This document shows, piece after piece, positions 3,497 through 12,425 of a DNA stretch of 64,000 nucleotides. Position 1 is the first letter of the stretch. Each line of letters starts with the position of its first letter. Below the pieces are notes generated by a model. It had not been told where the DNA came from, searched no databases, and worked only from the letters and a program-made list of their open reading frames with translations. The position numbers and the translations under genes were made by a program. This DNA is from Gammaproteobacteria bacterium (GTDB lineage: Bacteria > Pseudomonadota > Gammaproteobacteria > Pseudomonadales > Azotimanducaceae): assembly GCA_026707945.1 (NCBI GenBank), contig JAPOVV010000115.1, positions 248,001 through 312,000 of the forward strand, read 5' to 3'.

Positions 3497-4498
3497 TCAG
3501 CCAAAAGATGCCATGGTTTCGAGGAGGTCGCAGACTCGGTTCGAATAGCCCCACTCGTTGTCGTACCAGCAGAGAGATTTCAGAAAGCGACCGTTACTTA
3601 TTTGCGTGAACGACCCATCGAAGATTGACGAGTGCGGATTGCCAATGATGTCGGAGGATACGACCGGCTCCTCGGTAAATTCAAGTACGTCTTTCATGCG
3701 GGGCGATTGTGAAGCGTTGTAGATCGCTTCATGCAGGTCTTCTACCGTTGTGGGTTTCTCCAATTCAAGGAACAAATCCACGACCGAGCCGTCCAGGACG
3801 GGAACTCGTGAGGCAATGCCATCTAAGCGACCGTTTAGTTCCGGTAGTACCTCACCAACAGCCTTGGCAGCGCCCGTTGACGTGGGAATGATGTTCTCTG
3901 CCGCGGCTCGACTACGGCGCCAGTCCGAGTGGGGCACGTCGGCGAGGCTCTGATCATTCGTGTAGGCGTGCACGGTGTTGATCACTCCTTCACGGATCCC
4001 GAAGCTTTCATGAAGAACCTTGGCCACCGGTGCAAGGCAATTTGTTGTACAACTGGCATTTGAAACGATATGGTAGTCGGGTTGGAGACCTGCCTCGTTA
4101 ACGCCAAGCACCACCGTGTAGTCAATTTCGTCCTTCGCAGGAACAGTCAAAATGGCACGTTTAGCGCCTGCTTCGAGATGCATTGCAACTTCGGCTCGTG
4201 CGCGAAAGACACCTGTCGACTCCACCACGACATCGATGTCAAGTTCGTCCCAAGGCAAACGGCGGGGATCTCTTTCGCACACCATTCGAGCTCTGGTATG
4301 AGGGGTCACTAGAACATCGTCTTCGATTGCTACGCCACCTTCAAATCGTCCCATGACCGTGTCATACGTCAGCAAGTAGGCGAGAGCGTCGTTGTCGAAT
4401 AGATCATTAATCGCGACAACTTCGAGCTGGTCGTTACGCTCGGCAATCCTGAATACCGCGCGACCGATCCGACCAAAACCGTTAATGGCAACACGCAT
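3497..4498 (-). CDS. gap: Glyceraldehyde-3-phosphate dehydrogenase (canonical)
   Basis: 333 residues, normal length. N-terminal Rossmann motif I-N-G-F-G-R-I-G-R, Asp32 in I-N-D-L for NAD preference, catalytic S-N-A-S-C-T-T-N with Cys150, His177 in H-A-Y-T-N-D-Q, phosphate-site T208/G209 and R231, and the C-terminal W-Y-D-N-E-W-G-Y-S-N-R. It should oxidise glyceraldehyde-3-phosphate to 1,3-bisphosphoglycerate in glycolysis/gluconeogenesis. Its ATG overlaps the stop of the upstream GAPDH-like gene (TAATG), which implies coupled, similar-level synthesis of the two proteins and hints at a mixed complex. Confidence 0.97.
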   Translation of the reverse strand: MRVAINGFGRIGRAVFRIAERNDQLEVVAINDLFDNDALAYLLTYDTVMGRFEGGVAIEDDVLVTPHTRARMVCERDPRRLPWDELDIDVVVESTGVFRARAEVAMHLEAGAKRAILTVPAKDEIDYTVVLGVNEAGLQPDYHIVSNASCTTNCLAPVAKVLHESFGIREGVINTVHAYTNDQSLADVPHSDWRRSRAAAENIIPTSTGAAKAVGEVLPELNGRLDGIASRVPVLDGSVVDLFLELEKPTTVEDLHEAIYNASQSPRMKDVLEFTEEPVVSSDIIGNPHSSIFDGSFTQISNGRFLKSLCWYDNEWGYSNRVCDLLETMASFG

Positions 4499-5535
4499 TA
4501 GGCGACTCCCTTGTACTGAGGTTGTTCGAGGTCTGCATACATTGCCGCGAGGTCCAAAATACGGCTGGCATGACCAAGCGTTTCATGCCAGGCCAATACC
4601 TTAATCATCTTGGATCCAGCCTTCAACGTACCTTTTAGGTCAACGAGGATCGACTGTGAGCACCCCTTCACGTCGGAAGATACGATCGGGTCTGACGTCG
4701 CATCGATCAGCTCCGGCGTTGACGATGACGCAGCGAGAAAGTGTTCGTTCACCGTTTCGACAGACACATCTGCGTGACTAAATGCGACGGTCAAATCCAG
4801 AAGTGATCCGGTTTGAACAGGCACATTCAAGGCAAATCCACTCAGTTTACCTGCCATATCGGGCATTAGTCGCTCCACCCACTGTGGTGCGGGAGTCTCG
4901 TTGGGGATGATGTTCTCAGCGCCAGAGCGGCTGCGACGATAGTCCGGGCCAGCGTAATCCTGCAAGATCTGATCACTCGTGTAGGAATGCACGGAGGTCA
5001 TCGTCGCATGCTCGATGTCGCCTGCTTCCGACATGACCTTCAGTGCAAGGGCTAGGGCGGTGGTCGAAGAGGACCCCGCTGATACGATTTGATCGCGGGC
5101 ATCGATCGACGCCTGATTAATCCCGAATAGCACGACCCTATCGATGTCGCCGTCTGGGACCGTCGACAGTATGACACGTTGAGCGCCATTCACAAGGTGC
5201 GGGTCTAGGGCTTGTCTAGAACGAAACGTGCCGGTTGTGTCGACGACGATCTCGGCGTCAAGAATGTCCCAGGGCACGTCTGCCGGATTGTGAGCACGGA
5301 GCAGGCGAGTACGCTTTTCGGACCCACTCGTGACGTCTCGGAAAACGAGGTAATTTCCTTCAAGCCGTACCGGCAATCGAGGCGTAGTTGACTTTGTCAA
5401 CAAGTGATGGAGTATCTCTGGTTGACCAATGTCGGACACCGCGACAATCTCGAAGCGTTCATCATCGAGTGACAGCCTATAGATTTGCCGGCCAACGCGT
5501 CCGAAACCCATCATGCCGATCTTGACTTTGGTCAT
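4498..5535 (-). CDS. GAPDH-like paralogue lacking the catalytic cysteine
   Basis: 345 residues, GAPDH fold throughout: G-F-G-R-V-G-R at the N-terminus, H-S-Y-T-S-D-Q with the catalytic-position His183, and a conserved R-R-S-R-x-x-A-E-N-I-I-P segment. An ungapped alignment to the neighbouring enzyme puts Ser156 at the catalytic Cys, with the flanking TTN also altered. The phosphate-site Arg (R231 in the partner) is Asn237, G209 is Pro and K212 is Gln, and the W-Y-D-N-E-W-G-Y motif is degraded. Canonical GAPDH chemistry is therefore very unlikely. A structural or regulatory subunit, or a new substrate, is inferred. ATG 5535 is preferred over TTG 5541 because AGG lies 6 nt upstream of it. First gene of the operon. 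Confidence 0.88.
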   Translation of the reverse strand: MTKVKIGMMGFGRVGRQIYRLSLDDERFEIVAVSDIGQPEILHHLLTKSTTPRLPVRLEGNYLVFRDVTSGSEKRTRLLRAHNPADVPWDILDAEIVVDTTGTFRSRQALDPHLVNGAQRVILSTVPDGDIDRVVLFGINQASIDARDQIVSAGSSSTTALALALKVMSEAGDIEHATMTSVHSYTSDQILQDYAGPDYRRSRSGAENIIPNETPAPQWVERLMPDMAGKLSGFALNVPVQTGSLLDLTVAFSHADVSVETVNEHFLAASSSTPELIDATSDPIVSSDVKGCSQSILVDLKGTLKAGSKMIKVLAWHETLGHASRILDLAAMYADLEQPQYKGVA

Positions 5536-6124
5536 GTGCAACCTGTGAGTTGTCAGCCATTAACGTAACGCGTCGCCGCATCGTTGCCACTACACGGTAT
5601 CTCTTCGCAGATGTTTTACCAGAGTCGTCGATGCCGAACGCTATCAAAGATTTTAGGTTTCAAGCGACTAATCCACTAAGGTGAGTTGAACCGAGCGATC
5701 CACCTGGAGCACTCCTCGAAAAGACGTGCTGCGAACTGAGCCTAAGGTGTGTTCGGTCGCGTGGTTCGCTACCGCCTCCTACCGTTGGATGAGATAGGAA
5801 CACTGGTTCGAAGTGCCTTCCGAATAGCTATCGATTGACATTTGATTTTGCGGTGAAGCCCGATACGCTCAAAACGTAAGCGCCTCTGTCATAACTGCGA
5901 TGTTGGCAGGATTCGACATCCTGATCTGCTCTATGAGGGAAATTTGAAGTCTCGCCTTGATTTTCTTAGGCTGGCGGTTGTACTGTCGTTAAAATCTGTG
6001 GAGGCTTGCCACGTTCTGAAAAGGTAGTTGGGGCTTATGGTTCAACTTACAGACAAAGCCAAGTCAATCACTCGCTTTGGGCGGCTGTGAACCGCTAGGA
6101 CTTTACCGGAAGTACGACGTACAC
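5536..6124. other. Divergent intergenic region upstream of two operons
   Basis: 589 nt between the GAPDH operon (minus) and the di-iron operon (plus). It must hold both promoters. I see TTGACA at 5835-5840 without a well-spaced -10, and TAAAAT at 5990-5995 with a poor -35. A short frame of 17 codons at 6037-6090 (start ATG, ends TGA) precedes the first di-iron gene and might be a leader peptide. Nothing here is convincing enough to call. Confidence 0.4.
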
Positions 6125-7195
6125 ATGGATCAAGAAACACACAACGGCGCTGAATTCGATTTGGATTTAGGTTGGATGGAAAAACAAGGTGAGTGGGGTA
6201 CACACGCAGAACCGAGCAAGAACGGTTTAACGCTCGCTGACATCCAAGTTGGTTCCTACGCAGAAGCACCAGAGGAGAGTCGCAATCTAAGTGGTCGACC
6301 GCGTGGTGCCGTCCCCCGTCCAGGCAGCATGCCCATCGGCAACTACACGGTTCGTACAAAAAGTGAAATCTGGCTCGAGAACGCGTCGTTTCTCTATGAA
6401 GAAGCGCTGCAGCGTCAATGGAGCTCTGCGACCGACATTCCATGGGACACGATTGAGCCGCTTCCGGACGACGTTGAGCAAGCTCAGTGTCAGATGGCGA
6501 CCTTCCTGACGGAAGTCGAATTCGTTGCTGGCGATGTTCCCAGCAGGTGGGTCTCAAAGACATCGCCTGATTTTTATGAAGCGAGAAACGTTCTGATGGC
6601 GCAGGTGATGGACGAGTCTCGTCATATGGACGTATTTAGAAAACGCGCGTTGGCGAACGGTGGCGGACTTATGCGTGCGACCGGAGCAACGGCGGGTTTT
6701 GTCGGCGGGATCGACTTGGCACGGGACTTTACTGAAATGTCCTCGCGATTGCATCTTTCAGGAGAAGGCGCAGTACTGACTATTTTCCGCATGGGTGAAT
6801 TGATGGCATATAACGATGCGGAAAAAGCGATTTACCGACTTTGTGCGCAAGACGAGGCGCGACACGTAGCGTTCGGGGTAATGCACATGCGCTACATGGC
6901 CGCGAATGCACCTGAACGCCGTGAAGAGATCGAGTCGTATCTCGACGAAGCTGAAGCTGGCATGTTGACCGACGCAGCGAATCCCGCGGGTCAGCTCAAC
7001 CAGACTTCAGAATCGTTGTCCATCATGCTCGGTGGTGGTAGGAAGTACTTCGATGAGGGCTTCCGGAAGTTAGTTTCTATCCGTAAGCGTCAACTTCAGG
7101 AATACCAAAAGCGCGTGACGTCTGCTGGTTTTGGTGATCGATTCAAGAATGGTCGGTCCAGGCTAGGTCAGATGATGGCAAACGTTGCCAACTAA
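6125..7195 (+). CDS. Ferritin-like di-iron protein, ligands intact
   Basis: 356 residues. The four-helix di-iron ligand set is visible: Glu130 or Glu132 in T-E-V-E-F, E164-x-x-H167 in M-D-E-S-R-H, Glu225 in M-G-E-L-M, and E244-x-x-H247 in Q-D-E-A-R-H-V-A-F-G. This ExxH...E...ExxH layout is that of R2-like/AurF-type/multicomponent oxygenases, so oxygen activation is expected. The substrate is unknown. I start at ATG 6125 (GGAAG 12 nt upstream) rather than an in-frame site at 6077. First gene of a five-gene operon; 19 nt separate it from a paralogue that has lost all ligands. It probably forms a catalytic alpha subunit. I do not recognise a characterised orthologue. Confidence 0.82.
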   Translation: MDQETHNGAEFDLDLGWMEKQGEWGTHAEPSKNGLTLADIQVGSYAEAPEESRNLSGRPRGAVPRPGSMPIGNYTVRTKSEIWLENASFLYEEALQRQWSSATDIPWDTIEPLPDDVEQAQCQMATFLTEVEFVAGDVPSRWVSKTSPDFYEARNVLMAQVMDESRHMDVFRKRALANGGGLMRATGATAGFVGGIDLARDFTEMSSRLHLSGEGAVLTIFRMGELMAYNDAEKAIYRLCAQDEARHVAFGVMHMRYMAANAPERREEIESYLDEAEAGMLTDAANPAGQLNQTSESLSIMLGGGRKYFDEGFRKLVSIRKRQLQEYQKRVTSAGFGDRFKNGRSRLGQMMANVAN

Positions 7196-7214
7196 ACGCA
7201 CTAAGGTTTAGCGA

Positions 7215-8315
7215 ATGGCAACTGCGAAAGACGCAGACCGCGTCAGACCGGCACTAACGCTCACTAAGGAAGAACTTGAGGTCGAGGTTCCCGAACCACG
7301 ACTCAATTGGATGAATCAGTGGCGCGAATGGGGCGTGCGCGTCAAACCAGGAGAGAAGGGGCTGACCCTTGGTAGTCTGAACGTAGGCTTATATGGGGAG
7401 ATCCCCATGAACTGGCCGGATCGATCACGAAACCCGCGCGGCGCGATTGGAGTGACCGGGACGCCGCCCGTCGCGATCCAGATAAAAGATAAAGTAGACC
7501 TTTGGGCGCCTTGTGCCGCGGAGCTGTATGAAGAAGCAATACAACGACGTTGGGCTCCTGCAACGGATGTAGATTGGACGGCGATTCACCCATTGCCAGA
7601 AGACATCGAGCGCGCAATTTGTCAAGTCTGCACAGAGATCTGTCAATACGCGATCATCGACGTTGAGGTGATCACAAATTGGCAACACCAAATGGCGTAT
7701 GGTTATCACGAGGTTAAGCAGTTTCTGGCCACGACCACTTTGGATGCGACCCGCCGGCACGAAGCATTTCGAAAACGTGCGCTCGTCAACGGTGGTGGAC
7801 TTGGTTACGAGGGACCTTGTCAGGTAAGCCGGTTACTGCTCGAAAGTAGCGGCGGTTGGACTGAAACCGTCACGGGACTGGTATTGGTCCGAGCAATGTT
7901 CACGCAGATGATGATCCGTTATCTGACGCGATTTGCTTACAACGGTGTCGAACGCAAGATTTACGAATGCGTCACGCAAGATCTCGCTCGACTCATCACC
8001 TACGGTATTGAACATCTCAAGTATGCGTTGGCGCATGCGCCGGAGAAACAAGGTTCCATTCTTACGACGTTAGCTATTGGATTCCGAATGTTCAATCGGG
8101 ATTTGCGCGATCCGGTTCTGCGTGAAGCATTGGCAATCGTTTTCGGTGGTGGGATTGCAGGTGCGCGTAGTGAAGGTATGCATGTGTTCTATGAGATGCT
8201 CGATGAATACGTTGAAGAATTGCTCAATACGTGTCAGTACTTAAGACTACCGGTTGCGATCGAACAGTTGCCAAAGGTATTTCAAAAGGACCAGCGGTCC
8301 TTACCAGGTGAATAG
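7215..8315 (+). CDS. Ligandless paralogue of the di-iron protein
   Basis: 366 residues, collinear with the preceding protein. Shared landmarks include G-x-K-G-L-T-L, R-G-A, L-Y-E-E-A-I-Q-R-x-W-x-x-A-T-D, F-R-K-R-A-L-x-N-G-G-G-L and A-Y-N. Every metal position is changed: E130 to Q144, E132 to A146, E164 to A178, H167 to R181, E225 to T238, E244 to L257, H247 to L260. It therefore should not bind a di-iron centre. By analogy with PaaC or MmoY it is likely the structural partner of the upstream protein. ATG has AAGG 8 nt upstream. The next gene begins inside its last codons. Confidence 0.82.
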   Translation: MATAKDADRVRPALTLTKEELEVEVPEPRLNWMNQWREWGVRVKPGEKGLTLGSLNVGLYGEIPMNWPDRSRNPRGAIGVTGTPPVAIQIKDKVDLWAPCAAELYEEAIQRRWAPATDVDWTAIHPLPEDIERAICQVCTEICQYAIIDVEVITNWQHQMAYGYHEVKQFLATTTLDATRRHEAFRKRALVNGGGLGYEGPCQVSRLLLESSGGWTETVTGLVLVRAMFTQMMIRYLTRFAYNGVERKIYECVTQDLARLITYGIEHLKYALAHAPEKQGSILTTLAIGFRMFNRDLRDPVLREALAIVFGGGIAGARSEGMHVFYEMLDEYVEELLNTCQYLRLPVAIEQLPKVFQKDQRSLPGE

Positions 8316-8751
8316 ATTTTTGGCGAAATTTCCTTCGGTGGCGTGGTTCGACGCCGTACGTGATGTGTACAACAAAGATGACGCAATGCATGGCGCTGGA
8401 AGTGGCACGTGCAATTGTGTTGTCGGCGTGCAAGTAGGTCGAGAGTTATTTCAGCTTACGTTCGAAGGCTTTGAATGTAGCCGAGCCGAAAAGATCACGA
8501 AATCGAAGCTCGACGATTGCGATTTCTATCTGCACATGACAGCGAAAGACTGGCGCAGCATGTTGCAGAACATCCAGGAGCACGGGCACGCGACGGACAA
8601 CTTCACGCTAAATACGCTTGACTTGGGGCGAGTCGAGGGACTGTCTGCGTCCACCCACAATGACCAGTATCGTGAAGACTTGTTCTTCCGCTACAACCAG
8701 ACGTTGCAGTTCTTTTTTGACGGTTCCGCGCGCATCAAGACCACTTTCTAG
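8308..8751 (+). CDS. Small SCP2-like protein A
   Basis: About 147 residues from GTG 8308, which overlaps the upstream stop by 8 nt; no ATG fits the conserved N-terminus F-P-S-V-A-W-F-D-A. The middle (V-G-R-E-L-F-Q-L-T-F-E-G, then D-F-Y-L-H-M-T-A-K-D-W-x-S-M-L) has the spacing of SCP2 sterol-carrier domains, where the second block normally reads like x-V-x-x-x-M-S-x-E-D-F/W. SCP2 domains bind sterols, fatty acyl chains or other lipids in a hydrophobic tunnel. A substrate-presenting role for the di-iron proteins is inferred from the operon. The SCP2 assignment is by pattern and is moderate. Confidence 0.6.
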   Translation: MNRFLAKFPSVAWFDAVRDVYNKDDAMHGAGSGTCNCVVGVQVGRELFQLTFEGFECSRAEKITKSKLDDCDFYLHMTAKDWRSMLQNIQEHGHATDNFTLNTLDLGRVEGLSASTHNDQYREDLFFRYNQTLQFFFDGSARIKTTF

Positions 8752-8764
8752 ATCGAGTTGGGTA

Positions 8765-9157
8765 ATGGCAGTTTTTGATTGGATGCTGAACGCGAAAACA
8801 GAGGCTAACTCAGACCCGGCTTTTCGCGCGTTGGGTAGCGCTGATGCGACCGTGTGCTTCCAATCTGGAAAGCATGGTCGACGTGTAGTGTTTCAGGCGT
8901 TCGGGATCGAGAGCGTGACTGAAGCAGACGTCGACGCCATCAAGGACGACAACATTCTTATCGCAATGTCGACGCGGGAATGGAACTCATACCTCTACCG
9001 TCGCCGTCTCGGTCGTGCGCCGAGTCTTCTAGGACTCGATGCGGAAAAGGATGACGTTATCCAGACGAAGGATGTAAGCGCTAGATTACAGTTTGAGCGA
9101 ATATCGCGATCGATTCAGGCGTTTGTTGATTACGGAGCGCGCGCGAGCGGCCGTTAG
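8765..9157 (+). CDS. Small SCP2-like protein B
   Basis: 130 residues from ATG 8765. An in-frame start at 8618 would read through the preceding gene and is rejected. It shares with protein A the block V-F-Q-A-F-G-I-E-S-V-T-E-A-D followed by N-I-L-I-A-M-S-T-R-E-W-x-S-Y-L, matching the SCP2 core, so the two are likely distant paralogues. It lies 13 nt after protein A and 2 nt before the FmdB gene. Function unknown; a lipid or hydrophobic-substrate carrier is inferred. Confidence 0.6.
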   Translation: MAVFDWMLNAKTEANSDPAFRALGSADATVCFQSGKHGRRVVFQAFGIESVTEADVDAIKDDNILIAMSTREWNSYLYRRRLGRAPSLLGLDAEKDDVIQTKDVSARLQFERISRSIQAFVDYGARASGR

Positions 9158-9159
9158 CC

Positions 9160-9444
9160 GTGCCGTATTACGAGTATCGCTGCGCAGAATGCAGCAAAAT
9201 CTCAACGATCTTTGCACACATTGAACAGAAGCCGACGTCCATTCCGTGCGAACACGGCTGTAGCACGCGTGCGACCCCGATCGTCTCAAAAATGAATGTC
9301 AAGCTATCGAGTCTATCGAAAGTTGAACGACAAGATCCGAAGTACGACAAGATGGTCGATCAGGCGATGAACCGAGATCCAAAGTCGGATCCGATGCGAT
9401 ATGTCAATCGAAGAGGTGATCCCGCCAAGGGGAAGCCTGATTGA
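9160..9444 (+). CDS. FmdB-type zinc-ribbon protein
   Basis: 94 residues from GTG 9160, 2 nt after the previous stop. It begins M-P-Y-Y-E-Y-R-C-A-E-C, the hallmark of FmdB-family zinc ribbons, with a second cysteine pair C-E-H-G-C at ~31-35. The C-terminal half is charged and low in complexity. FmdB proteins are called regulatory, but their mechanism is not known; several occur beside metalloenzyme operons. Here it closes the di-iron operon, so a role in assembly or regulation of that enzyme is an inference. Confidence 0.8.
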   Translation: MPYYEYRCAECSKISTIFAHIEQKPTSIPCEHGCSTRATPIVSKMNVKLSSLSKVERQDPKYDKMVDQAMNRDPKSDPMRYVNRRGDPAKGKPD

Positions 9445-9451
9445 TGGTCGC

Positions 9452-9658
9452 CTAAAGGAATCCCAACAAATCTAGTGCATAGGCGACGGCAAATATCCCG
9501 ACGGCGCCGCCGATCCCAAGCACAATGATCAGTGTCGGTGCACTTATCGCAGGTTTATCTTCACCACTCGTGGGTGTGTTCTTGCTGCGAGCGTATAGAA
9601 GAACGAGCACGAGGATCAGTGCGACGATAGGTATAACGTAATAGATTATGACGCGCAA
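9452..9658 (-). CDS. Small two-TM membrane protein
   Basis: 68 residues from TTG 9658 with GAGGA upstream. Two hydrophobic helices (~4-22 and ~43-66) are joined by a polar loop. No family recognised. It is convergent with the FmdB gene (7 nt between ends) and 56 nt from the divergent symporter gene. Reality is supported by the hydropathy pattern and the ribosome-binding site only. Confidence 0.55.
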   Translation of the reverse strand: MRVIIYYVIPIVALILVLVLLYARSKNTPTSGEDKPAISAPTLIIVLGIGGAVGIFAVAYALDLLGFL

Positions 9659-9714
9659 GGCACCGGTTCCTCATCGCCTCGTGATGCTCAAACTGAATTT
9701 TAGAAACCGTCGCA

Positions 9715-11223
9715 TTGAGCGCTAGCTCGTTCCTGTCGGACCATTGGTTCGCAGTGTTACTACTCATCGGTTATAGCGCGATTCTTCTGTGGCACGCGAG
9801 ACTTGGCTTCAAGCGTAGCGGGACGATCGGCGGCTACCTAGTCGGCGGTCGCCATATGGGTGGCGTCATCATCGGCGTGTCGTTTTTCGCCACGTTCGCA
9901 AGTACCAACAGTTACCTCGGTTTGGCTGGAAAAGGCTACAGCTTTGGTGCGCCTTGGCTGTTATTTCCATTAATGATGGTCGCGGCGACCTACCTCTCCT
10001 GGCGATTGGTCGCTCCCGAGTTGCGTCGCTTCACGGCAATGACGGATACCGTCACTGTGCCCGAATTCTTGGCCGCACGATTCGCAAGCCAAAGTGTGCG
10101 GGTGCTCACTGGCTTGATCATCGCACTCGCGAGTTTGCTTTACCTCATTGCGATATTCAAGGGAGCCGGCAACTTATTCCAAGTGTTCCTCGGTATCCCG
10201 TACGAAGCCGCGGTGGGATTGATGTTCGTAGTGGTGCTTGTTTACACGTCTGTTGGAGGTTTCGTTTCAGTTGTGCGAACGGACGTGATTCAAGGCGTAT
10301 TGATGTTGCTCGGTTCCGTGGTGTTATTTGGATTCGTGACCACTCACATTGGTGGTCCGGGTCGCATATTCGATCTCATGACGATGCCTGAGAAGGAATA
10401 TCTATTCACTTGGAATGCGGGGGCACCGATCCTGGTTGTCCTGGGTATCGCGCTCGCCGGATCTATGAAACTACTGATTGATCCACGCCAGATTTCGCGT
10501 TTCTACGGATTGCGTGATGCAGCGAGCGTTTCACGAGGTATCGGTTTTGCCATCGGCGGATTACTGATCATCCAATTCTGTTTATTCCCACTTGGACTCT
10601 ACGCCCACTTTCTAATCGACGACATCGCGGACACTGATCTCATTGTGCCGATGCTCATTCAAGACCCAGCGATATTTCCTTTGCTGATAGCCGACTTTCT
10701 TGTCGTGGCAATCCTAGCTGCGGCGATGTCGTCGATGGACAGCGTTCTATTGGTTGCAGGATCAGTCACGACGCGGGATGTCGTCGGCGTCGTAGTACCC
10801 ATGAGCGAGGCGCGCCAGACCTTTTACACGCGGATTGGCGTCATCGCATGTGCCGCATTTGCTGCCTTGTTTGCGTTAAACCCCTTCGGAGACATCGTCG
10901 AAATCACGATACTCTCTGGCAGTCTATACGCCGTGTGTTTCTTGCCCGCGATCATGGTAGGACTTCACTGGGCGCGCGGGAACGCGATCGCGGTGATCGC
11001 TTCTTATGGAGGAGGGATTGCGACGATTCTGCTCTGGCGTAACCTTGGACTAAGTGCTACGCTGCACGAGGTGCTTCCTGCGTTAGCGATCTCCATGGGG
11101 TTGTACTTACTTGTAGCGTGGACAACGCCGCGCGTAAGCACAACCGAGGTTATCGAGTTCTTTTTGACGAAGAACACTACATCCGACAACGAAGCTCAGA
11201 GAAATTCAACCCAACCCGTTTAG
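9715..11223 (+). CDS. Sodium:solute symporter (SSS family)
   Basis: 502 residues, about 13 membrane helices. The N-terminal block G-Y-L-V-G-G-R-x-M-G-G and S-F-F-A-T-F-A-S-T-N-S-Y-L-G, and V-Y-T-S-V-G-G-F-V-S-V-V-R-T-D in the sixth helix region, are typical of the SSS (PutP/SglT) family. It should take up an organic solute with Na+; the solute cannot be told. Start is TTG 9715 with no clear ribosome-binding site; no ATG lies early enough. The last 18 nt overlap the 3' end of the convergent hydrolase gene. Confidence 0.92.
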   Translation: MSASSFLSDHWFAVLLLIGYSAILLWHARLGFKRSGTIGGYLVGGRHMGGVIIGVSFFATFASTNSYLGLAGKGYSFGAPWLLFPLMMVAATYLSWRLVAPELRRFTAMTDTVTVPEFLAARFASQSVRVLTGLIIALASLLYLIAIFKGAGNLFQVFLGIPYEAAVGLMFVVVLVYTSVGGFVSVVRTDVIQGVLMLLGSVVLFGFVTTHIGGPGRIFDLMTMPEKEYLFTWNAGAPILVVLGIALAGSMKLLIDPRQISRFYGLRDAASVSRGIGFAIGGLLIIQFCLFPLGLYAHFLIDDIADTDLIVPMLIQDPAIFPLLIADFLVVAILAAAMSSMDSVLLVAGSVTTRDVVGVVVPMSEARQTFYTRIGVIACAAFAALFALNPFGDIVEITILSGSLYAVCFLPAIMVGLHWARGNAIAVIASYGGGIATILLWRNLGLSATLHEVLPALAISMGLYLLVAWTTPRVSTTEVIEFFLTKNTTSDNEAQRNSTQPV

Positions 11224-12174
11224 AAATCCGATCAAGCCTTCGTTAACCGCGTCAGGCGCTTCTTGTTGCGTCCAGTGTCCGATGTCTGGTAGTACAACGA
11301 CATCCCTCAGGTTAGGTAAGACTGCCATCATTGCGGCCTTAGCGTTTTCACTGTACGGGACTACGTCACGTGTGCCTGTCATGAAGAATGCAGGCTGTTC
11401 AATCTTCTTCCCTTGAAGACTTCCCGAGAGTTCCCAGTTCCGATCGATATTTCGATACCAATTTAGACCACCACGAAAACCAGCTTTTTCGAATTGACTG
11501 ACGTAGTAGTCAACGTCCTCTTTAGTTAGCCACTCGGGTAAATCGTCCCCTGGGTCAGGCATTCTTTCGAGCATAAACGCTGAACTAGGCGGCGAATCAC
11601 CGCGTTCGAAAAAGTTGCCGCGATTGACAGATCCTGAAGCGCCGAACAACATCTTGCGCATCGTTTTCGGAATGTCGTTCTGAAGCTCGTGCTCAGCCAC
11701 TCCTGGCGTTTGAAAATAGAGTTGGTAGAAGAAGCGATCGCCCATGAGTTCCTTTATCCCAACGAGAGGTGGCGTCGACCCCCGAGGACCTATTGGTACG
11801 GACAGCGATGCTACGGCACGGAATACATCAGAGCGCAGCATCGCGCAATTCCACGCAACGGGTGAACCCCAATCGTGACCGACGACCACTGCTTGGGTTT
11901 CGCCTAACGCGTCTACCAAACCGACGATATCACCAACAAGGTGGAAGATCGTGTAATCGTCAATGTTGGGTGGTGCGTCTGTGCTGCCATAACCGCGTTG
12001 ATCAGGCGCTACGACGTGATAACCAGCATCTGAAAGTGCACGTAGCTGGTGTCTCCATGAGTACCACGACTCGGGGAAGCCATGGCATAGCACAACAAGA
12101 GGACCTTCACCAGCCTCCGCGATGTGCATGGTGAGTCCATTCGATTGAATATCGCGTTCAGTGATGTCGCTCAT
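11206..12174 (-). CDS. Alpha/beta hydrolase, epoxide hydrolase-like
   Basis: 322 residues. Oxyanion-hole H-G-F-P-E-S-W near 31, nucleophile Asp in V-V-G-H-D-W-G (~99-105), D-Q-R-G-Y-G-S-T, and the catalytic His in I-G-H-W-T-Q-Q-E-A-P (~300). An Asp nucleophile with HGFPES is the soluble epoxide hydrolase / haloalkane dehalogenase-type arrangement; epoxide hydrolase is favoured. AGGAA lies 7 nt before the ATG. It overlaps the symporter tail-to-tail by 18 nt. Confidence 0.85.
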   Translation of the reverse strand: MSDITERDIQSNGLTMHIAEAGEGPLVVLCHGFPESWYSWRHQLRALSDAGYHVVAPDQRGYGSTDAPPNIDDYTIFHLVGDIVGLVDALGETQAVVVGHDWGSPVAWNCAMLRSDVFRAVASLSVPIGPRGSTPPLVGIKELMGDRFFYQLYFQTPGVAEHELQNDIPKTMRKMLFGASGSVNRGNFFERGDSPPSSAFMLERMPDPGDDLPEWLTKEDVDYYVSQFEKAGFRGGLNWYRNIDRNWELSGSLQGKKIEQPAFFMTGTRDVVPYSENAKAAMMAVLPNLRDVVVLPDIGHWTQQEAPDAVNEGLIGFLNGLG

Positions 12175-12425
12175 GAGATGTTCCTGTGGGTGGTACCGCG
12201 TTCGAAGGGTGCTGGGTGAGCGCCTGTATTAGGCGTGAGAGATTATCAATTTGCATCCATGTCGGGTTCGCAGTCAATCGAGTTGTATTTAGCAAGGCGA
12301 GCGCGGTCTTGGACCGCACCACTACATTCGCAGGACGACCGGATATAAATTCGCGAGTACCGCGATAGCGTCGAATCGCTCCGTGCTACATTCTTAACTA
12401 ACGAACCATCTCAATCGAAAGCGTC

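Follow-up and report, generated by a model that had tools for sequence, protein, structure and literature searches.

A five-gene operon of a Pseudomonadales bacterium probably encodes a multicomponent diiron oxygenase with an active and a ligandless subunit

The 64,000-nucleotide stretch of contig JAPOVV010000115.1 analysed here (the window) is part of the 3.8 Mb draft genome of a gammaproteobacterium of the Azotimanducaceae and carries an operon of five genes, A to E (Table 1), which probably encodes a multicomponent diiron oxygenase that works like PaaA/PaaC and belongs to no named family found here. Sequence, structural models and analogy with known systems together give this reading a probability of about 0.7. 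The A and B proteins would form a heteromeric O2-activating oxygenase, in which A holds a dimetal site, most likely diiron, in a four-helix bundle and B, apparently an ancient duplicate of A that has lost the metal site, would shape and stabilise the complex in the way that PaaC serves PaaA. The small protein C, with its copy D, would be an indispensable partner that docks on A/B, either as a gate to the site or to bring in the substrate, and E may be a metal-binding accessory protein, perhaps for iron loading or electron transfer. Electrons would come from free ferredoxins differing by lineage and not from a fused flavin-[2Fe-2S] reductase, a step that is partly supported, and by family analogy the reaction would be the insertion of one oxygen atom, namely hydroxylation, epoxidation or N-oxygenation. 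The roles of A and B rest on direct sequence and fold evidence, and those of C, E and the ferredoxins are suggested by linkage. The joint occurrence of A and B in 80 retrieved loci of three phyla is far more than chance would give, and the operon is real. None of the five proteins reaches the cut-off of a Pfam or NCBIfam family, although E comes close to that of FmdB.

The six putative metal ligands of A (E132, E164xxH167, E214 and E244xxH247) are all present in 79 of the 79 A rows from the 80 loci in which these columns are filled, and their successive distances are 32, 3, 47, 30 and 3 residues (E-32-ExxH-47-E-30-ExxH). In the AlphaFold model of A, which has a mean predicted local distance difference test (pLDDT) score of 80, the ligand-bearing helices span residues 115-145, 151-177, 202-222 and 231-261, and the ligand pattern together with this four-helix placement fits the superfamily of ferritin-like/R2-type dimetal oxygenases. 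Foldseek matches the model to VlmB, the R2 subunit of ribonucleotide reductase (RNR), R2lox and the hydroxylase of soluble methane monooxygenase (sMMO) at E-values of 8e-5 to 1e-3, and all 35 PDB matches at an E-value of 0.001 or less are chains of VlmB or its homologue, R2, R2lox or sMMO. A search of the PDB with the A profile gives one sole match below 0.1, the VlmB homologue 6d9f (E-value 4e-4). The assignment of A as a dimetal-site protein of R2-type fold is well supported by its sequence and by the predicted structure; the metal pair is most likely Fe/Fe but may be Mn/Fe.

B is homologous to A over nearly the whole length, with 338 aligned columns, an E-value of 1.4e-81 and 29% identity by hhalign. 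Neither Asp nor Glu occupies any of the four acidic ligand positions in the 74 B rows, out of 79, in which they are filled, the commonest replacements being Lys for E244 (54 rows), Gly for E214 (64), Ala for E132 (66) and Ala or Ser for E164 (68). At the two His ligand positions, His persists in 48 of 75 filled rows for the first and in 51 of 74 for the second. A and B fall into two old groups in a tree of 66 rows, and by eye these groups branch similarly. A single origin of B is not proven, because the divergent A/B pair of locus L157 is unplaceable in the tree owing to its long branches. This locus (G032:C155, 6508-9288) has the order C-B'-A' on one strand, A' having kept six ligands and B' none. 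The comparison of the two sequence sets supports A/B well as an active/inactive dimetal pair. The initial annotation, made from the letters of the window, had read a full ExxH...E...ExxH set in the first gene and an active/inactive diiron pair in the first two; these readings are borne out by the ligand counts, by the predicted R2-type helical bundle with its ligands on four helices, no contrary fold being seen, and by the A/B homology, the loss of the acid ligands from B and the similar branching of the two trees.

One scan of bacterial genomes returned 83 relatives of A, and the best 80 were kept as loci, all of them titled as metagenome-assembled genomes (MAGs). By title, 47 loci belong to Proteobacteria, Gammaproteobacteria or Pseudomonadales, 30 to Chloroflexota (Chloroflexi, Dehalococcoidia and one SAR202) and one to Vicinamibacterales, and two are labelled Klebsiella pneumoniae. 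The order A-B-C-D-E is found in 36 of the 47 proteobacterial loci, a count that includes L093, in which the A frame is split, as well as L034 and L055, where the B frame as read extends too far upstream; among the remainder, L050 and L059 are without one small gene, L064 has a different gene after D, and eight are cut by a contig end. The 30 Chloroflexota loci comprise nine with A-B-E-C, one with A-B-C-D-E, two with A-B-C (L094, whose second gene scored as A, is counted here) and 18 with A-B only, among which L084 is cut just after B and L099 has a broken B frame. The Vicinamibacterales locus reads A-B-E-C and the two Klebsiella-labelled loci read A-B-C-D. The gene order first noted in the window is conserved in other genomes across phyla, so an order confined to this strain is not seen. 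L060 and L066, the two Klebsiella-labelled loci, are operon copies on two contigs of a single assembly with the title Klebsiella pneumoniae MAG MaH-04nov19-284. In the tree their A genes fall among the other copies from Proteobacteria, and the label of that assembly is probably wrong. Record names such as ALOHA and SAR202 suggest that the habitats are marine in part.

Linkage extends beyond the operon itself. Thirteen of the 18 Chloroflexota genomes with A-B only were searched, and C lies elsewhere in the genome in all 13; E is directly upstream of C in nine of nine cases of the L080-L092 type, and in the four cases of the L095-L098 type no E was found in the stretch examined. Among 97 related genomes, 33 have an A match at an E-value of 0.001 or less and 23 have a strong one (E-value < 1e-60), the weaker matches being weak ferritin-like matches and a remnant in G011. 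C is present in the same 23 of the 97 relatives as A, as judged by comparing the lists by eye. The remnant (L158, G011:C96, 4681-6064) consists of a B-like gene of 326 aa and a C/D-like gene, A being missing, and transposase-like frames lie upstream of it towards the contig end. In 369 genomes drawn evenly from the class, A is found at an E-value of 1e-30 or less only in the genome of the window and in G234. A plasmid search gave one weak A-like match, in Xenorhabdus, and none for C, and 169 pattern matches in viral contigs included none that was related.

Within the window, A and B are separated by 19 nucleotides, C and D by 13 and D and E by 2. An overlap of 8 nucleotides between B and C requires that C start at GTG 8308. 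The C homologues of L051, L054, L056 and L094 start at MAKFPS, which corresponds to TTG 8320 and leaves a gap of 4 nucleotides between B and C. Because several homologues begin at this motif, the sequence comparison indicates that the overlap is probably a start-site artefact and that TTG 8320, not GTG 8308, is the probable start of C. The five genes lie on the same strand; of the tight spacing described in the initial annotation, the three gaps stand and the overlap probably falls.

Table 1. Genes of the operon, with positions in the window
Gene	Position	Strand	Description
A	6125..7195	+	356 aa, R2-type dimetal (presumed diiron) catalytic subunit; ligands E132, E164, H167, E214, E244, H247
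B	7215..8315	+	366 aa, ligandless collinear homologue of A, presumed structural subunit
C	8308..8751	+	Small protein of alpha/beta type with an SCP2-like predicted fold; TTG 8320 is the probable true start
D	8765..9157	+	130 aa, paralogue of C; second copy mainly in proteobacterial loci
E	9160..9444	+	Four-cysteine protein of the FmdB type (zinc ribbon or rubredoxin-like); conserved C-terminal tail, confined to this system among the relatives searched

Among the closest known systems is the phenylacetyl-CoA epoxidase PaaABCE(D). In the part of the published account used here, PaaC is the structural partner of PaaA, PaaD is a small protein needed in vivo, and the PaaA ligands lie at residues 42, 72, 75, 126, 155 and 158, giving a spacing of 30, 3, 51, 29 and 3 that is close to that of A (PMC4498308). 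Like PaaABCE(D) as portrayed in those sections, the present operon pairs a presumed diiron catalytic subunit with a homologous and putatively structural subunit that would be free of metal, and adds to them one further small subunit and an accessory protein, likewise small (PMC4498308). Unlike it, the genome of the window has no Fer2 frame of the size of PaaE, and no search match ties C, D or E to PaaB or PaaD. By sequence, a homologous metal-free partner in the operon is shared with PaaA/PaaC and with the bacterial multicomponent monooxygenases (BMM), and at an E-value of 1 or less the 42 A members touch 13 Pfam families and the 50 B members 15, with no PaaA/PaaC or BMM family in either set. 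Monooxygenases of the sMMO type follow the same logic of an active alpha and an inactive beta chain. sMMO shares the R2-type fold with A, its alpha chains matching the A model, but A has 356 residues compared with about 510 in the matched sMMO chains, and neither a Fer2 reductase frame of matching size nor a family match is found.

C and D are homologous to each other in a profile comparison (E-value 1.9e-39). The C model (pLDDT 92) consists of a helix, three strands, a helix, a strand, further helices and a long last helix, an order that by reading of the model is SCP2-like. Of the 12 invariant residues of C, seven are polar or charged, as would fit a surface that binds proteins no less than a carrier, and an invariant D124-x-F-x-R128 motif lies near the C terminus. 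One possibility, not far short of an even chance, is that C is a cofactorless coupling or effector subunit with the role of MmoB, TmoD or PaaB, docking on A/B and tuning the metal site. No other partner keeps as strictly to A as C, which accompanies it in 23 of 23 relatives and, where the two are unlinked, was found at another place of the genome in all 13 cases searched; moreover, it stands beside the A homologue of L264, where no B or E is found, and the invariant motif would also suit such a role. Against this, the fold of C appears to differ from that of MmoB and DmpM.

A more doubtful possibility, close to the small carriers of a hydrophobic substrate that the initial annotation had inferred, is that C and D truly carry lipids or acyl groups. 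They would then take up a hydrophobic substrate and pass it on to A, in the manner of UbiJ and its hydroxylases. The precedent is that the small SCP2 proteins UbiJ and UbiT serve hydroxylases and that UbiJ holds ubiquinone intermediates, as stated in the excerpted part of the source (PMC6747719). The predicted C fold resembles UbiJ-SCP2 with a Foldseek probability of 0.90-0.93, but at an E-value of about 0.06 these matches rank 12, 14 and 15, behind SpnK and GppA-type chains, and no C match reaches 0.001. SCP2 (PF02036) is the commonest Pfam family among C members, touched by three of 34 at an E-value of 1 or less (best 0.086), but by none of 31 D members. The C profile finds four PDB sequences at an E-value of 10 or less, one of them named Sterol carrier protein 2 (2cx7, E-value 1.6). 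However, hhalign against 19 SCP2 proteins of relatives, drawn from 30 SCP2 loci of which one more yielded no frame, gives E-values of 0.24 for C and 0.17 for D, compared with 0.14 and 0.4 for the reversed controls. C thus resembles UbiJ weakly in predicted fold and shows no significant sequence homology to it; the polar or charged character of the invariant residues also speaks against a carrier. Because the sequence searches give no significant SCP2 homology, C and D are called SCP2-like by predicted fold only, a weakly supported label that has to be softened. The shared core that the initial annotation saw in the two proteins holds as C/D homology with a weak UbiJ-SCP2 fold match for C, and not as sequence homology to SCP2.

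E scores 29.3 bits against the NCBIfam FmdB model (TIGR02605, cut-off 31.3) and 27.5 bits against Pfam Zn_ribbon_8 (cut-off 34.4), slightly under the first cut-off and under the second; the FmdB zinc ribbon of the initial annotation is here called FmdB-like. Cys 8, 11, 30 and 34 are invariant in 33 rows, and the protein has a conserved C-terminal tail of its own. Full-length E (E-value < 1e-20) is present in 21 of the 23 A-bearing relatives and in none of the other 74, which give at most a match to the zinc-ribbon part.

No reductase or ferredoxin gene is linked to the operon in the window, as the initial annotation had remarked; the remark is true of the window, and the relatives provide ferredoxin leads in L057, in L264 and in a ferredoxin clade. 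The draft genome itself contains seven Fer2 matches in frames of 108-181 and 950 residues, none of which is a PaaE-sized or matching flavin/[2Fe-2S] reductase frame. In L057 a gene for a [2Fe-2S] ferredoxin of 106 residues lies on the same strand and ends 100 nucleotides upstream of A. The clade of such [2Fe-2S] ferredoxins (branch support 95/98), a true clade provided that the tree is rooted as drawn, occurs in 22 of the 23 A-bearing relatives and in eight of the other 74, a count which assumes that matches at least about 55% identical to the first ferredoxin (G000:C2) belong to the other side. Fisher's test for its association with A gives p = 3.5e-14, not corrected for kinship, and within the genus the numbers are nine of 10 and none of eight; the association may reflect genome size and kinship. 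The clade gene adjoins a gene read as coaE, away from the operon, in nine of the 15 A-bearing loci listed. The [2Fe-2S] ferredoxin G000:C2 was rejected as a donor, being too common (63 of 97 relatives at an E-value of 1e-12 or less). In L264 of genome G234 (7243-12422), a divergent A' with all six ligands intact overlaps a C gene; 11 nucleotides after C comes a 2[4Fe-4S] ferredoxin gene, and beyond it are genes for an ATPase of the CbbQ/NorQ type and a VWA protein. This arrangement is seen in a single genome, for which contamination is estimated at 6%. The pairing of ATPase and VWA genes suggests maturation of the metal site. A motif scan for dicluster ferredoxins near A found none in the 80 loci.

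Several observations weigh against the reading of the operon as a PaaA/PaaC-like oxygenase with its small partners and free ferredoxins. The A model is of low confidence in its first 80 residues or so. The B protein of L094, which scored as A and is outside the 74-row count, has Asp at position 214, its other acid ligands being gone. No B is found in the G234 genome, whose L264 has A' and C, so B is not needed everywhere; L064 has no E next to D, and neither do the two loci labelled Klebsiella. Within the stretch examined, L057 is the only one of the 80 loci with a [2Fe-2S] ferredoxin gene by A, and the ferredoxin clade has no match in 18 of 19 Chloroflexota genomes and one weak match in the other; because of these two results, the clade is not shown to be a general donor.

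A is unlikely to be an AurF/VlmB-like N-oxygenase with an amine or hydrazine as its substrate, even though the azoxy synthase VlmB and the AurF N-oxygenases are its best structural and profile match. 6d9f, which is named a putative VlmB homolog and also Protein 60 with aldehyde deformylating activity, and VlmB itself (8wvr) rank first and fourth in Foldseek, 6d9f is the sole profile match mentioned above, and Pfam AurF is touched by two of 42 A and 10 of 50 B members (best E-values 0.22 and 0.0045). However, R2, R2lox and sMMO score almost equally in Foldseek, VlmB is only 17-18% identical to A, no AurF match exceeds the Pfam cut-off among the A1 or A2 members inspected, and no N-N biosynthesis genes were noticed in the flanks inspected. 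No ligandless partner, C or E is known for VlmB, and AurF and VlmB are not known to be heterodimers. The pathway partner of VlmB named in the part of the source used is VlmO (PMC11705231). Among weak A homologues, L160 is above the Pfam AurF cut-off, L159 and L160 have sub-threshold R2lox matches, and no B lies beside L159, L160 or L161.

It is very improbable that A acts as an R2lox-like, ligand-binding Mn/Fe oxidase or generates a radical as R2 does: both R2lox and R2 share its fold and ligand pattern and rank high in Foldseek, and NCBIfam R2lox matches A of the window weakly (23.5 bits, cut-off 194), but the position that we take to be that of the R2 radical Tyr (first His ligand + 4) is Phe171 in 79 of 79 filled rows and the presumed position of the R2lox cross-link Tyr (helix-E Glu - 5, likewise by R2/R2lox numbering) is Leu209 in 79 of 80 rows and Met in one. 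Both identities were rejected on the absence of the two tyrosines under this numbering, and Phe at the radical position alone leaves R2 classes without the Tyr possible.

The flanks were searched up to 16 kb per locus, and the families of the neighbours were read from sequence. A CaiB/BaiF-like CoA-transferase cluster lies near the operon in 23 of 80 loci and was rejected as a substrate clue, three such genes occurring in the 64-kb window (about one per 21 kb). A sodium/solute symporter-like cluster is present in 18 of 80 loci and travels with other conserved neighbours of the proteobacterial loci, and its recurrence may be plain synteny. Downstream of the operon on the minus strand (11206-12174) is an alpha/beta hydrolase resembling epoxide hydrolases, which is kept in seven of 80 loci (L022, L024 and L026-L030) and is possibly a hint at epoxide chemistry or mere synteny. 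Luciferase-like flavin monooxygenases occur near the operon in both orientations in seven of 80 loci (L054, L056, L062, L072, L078, L080 and L082). Two genes resembling that for glyceraldehyde-3-phosphate dehydrogenase, at 3497-4498 and 4498-5541 on the minus strand, overlap by one base; the first keeps SNASCTTN and the second has SAGSSSTTA at the same place. The second seems from its sequence to be without the catalytic Cys, which would make another active/inactive twin pair beside the operon.

Among the papers listed by searches of the open-access literature, none describes the A-E system by its title or abstract start, subscription papers being mostly outside those searches; the novelty of the system is likely but not proven. 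As a wider proposal, and with the odds somewhat against it, the operon may represent a separate class of multicomponent diiron oxygenase across Chloroflexota and Pseudomonadales, in which a catalytic/pseudo-catalytic pair is joined by an indispensable docking subunit of SCP2-like type, which would present the substrate or control its entry, by a four-cysteine FmdB partner for iron loading or electron entry and by lineage-specific ferredoxins in place of a dedicated reductase, and which acts on a common, perhaps marine, organic compound. Diiron oxygenases start the breakdown of chemically stubborn molecules. The system occurs in uncultured bacteria of at least three phyla, and its A to D proteins have no Pfam or NCBIfam family name, and it may thus be a route, so far unrecognised, by which organic carbon of the environment is first attacked. 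It also offers a clean natural enzyme/pseudoenzyme pair with a strictly co-inherited small partner, in which the roles of the parts would be separable by omission.

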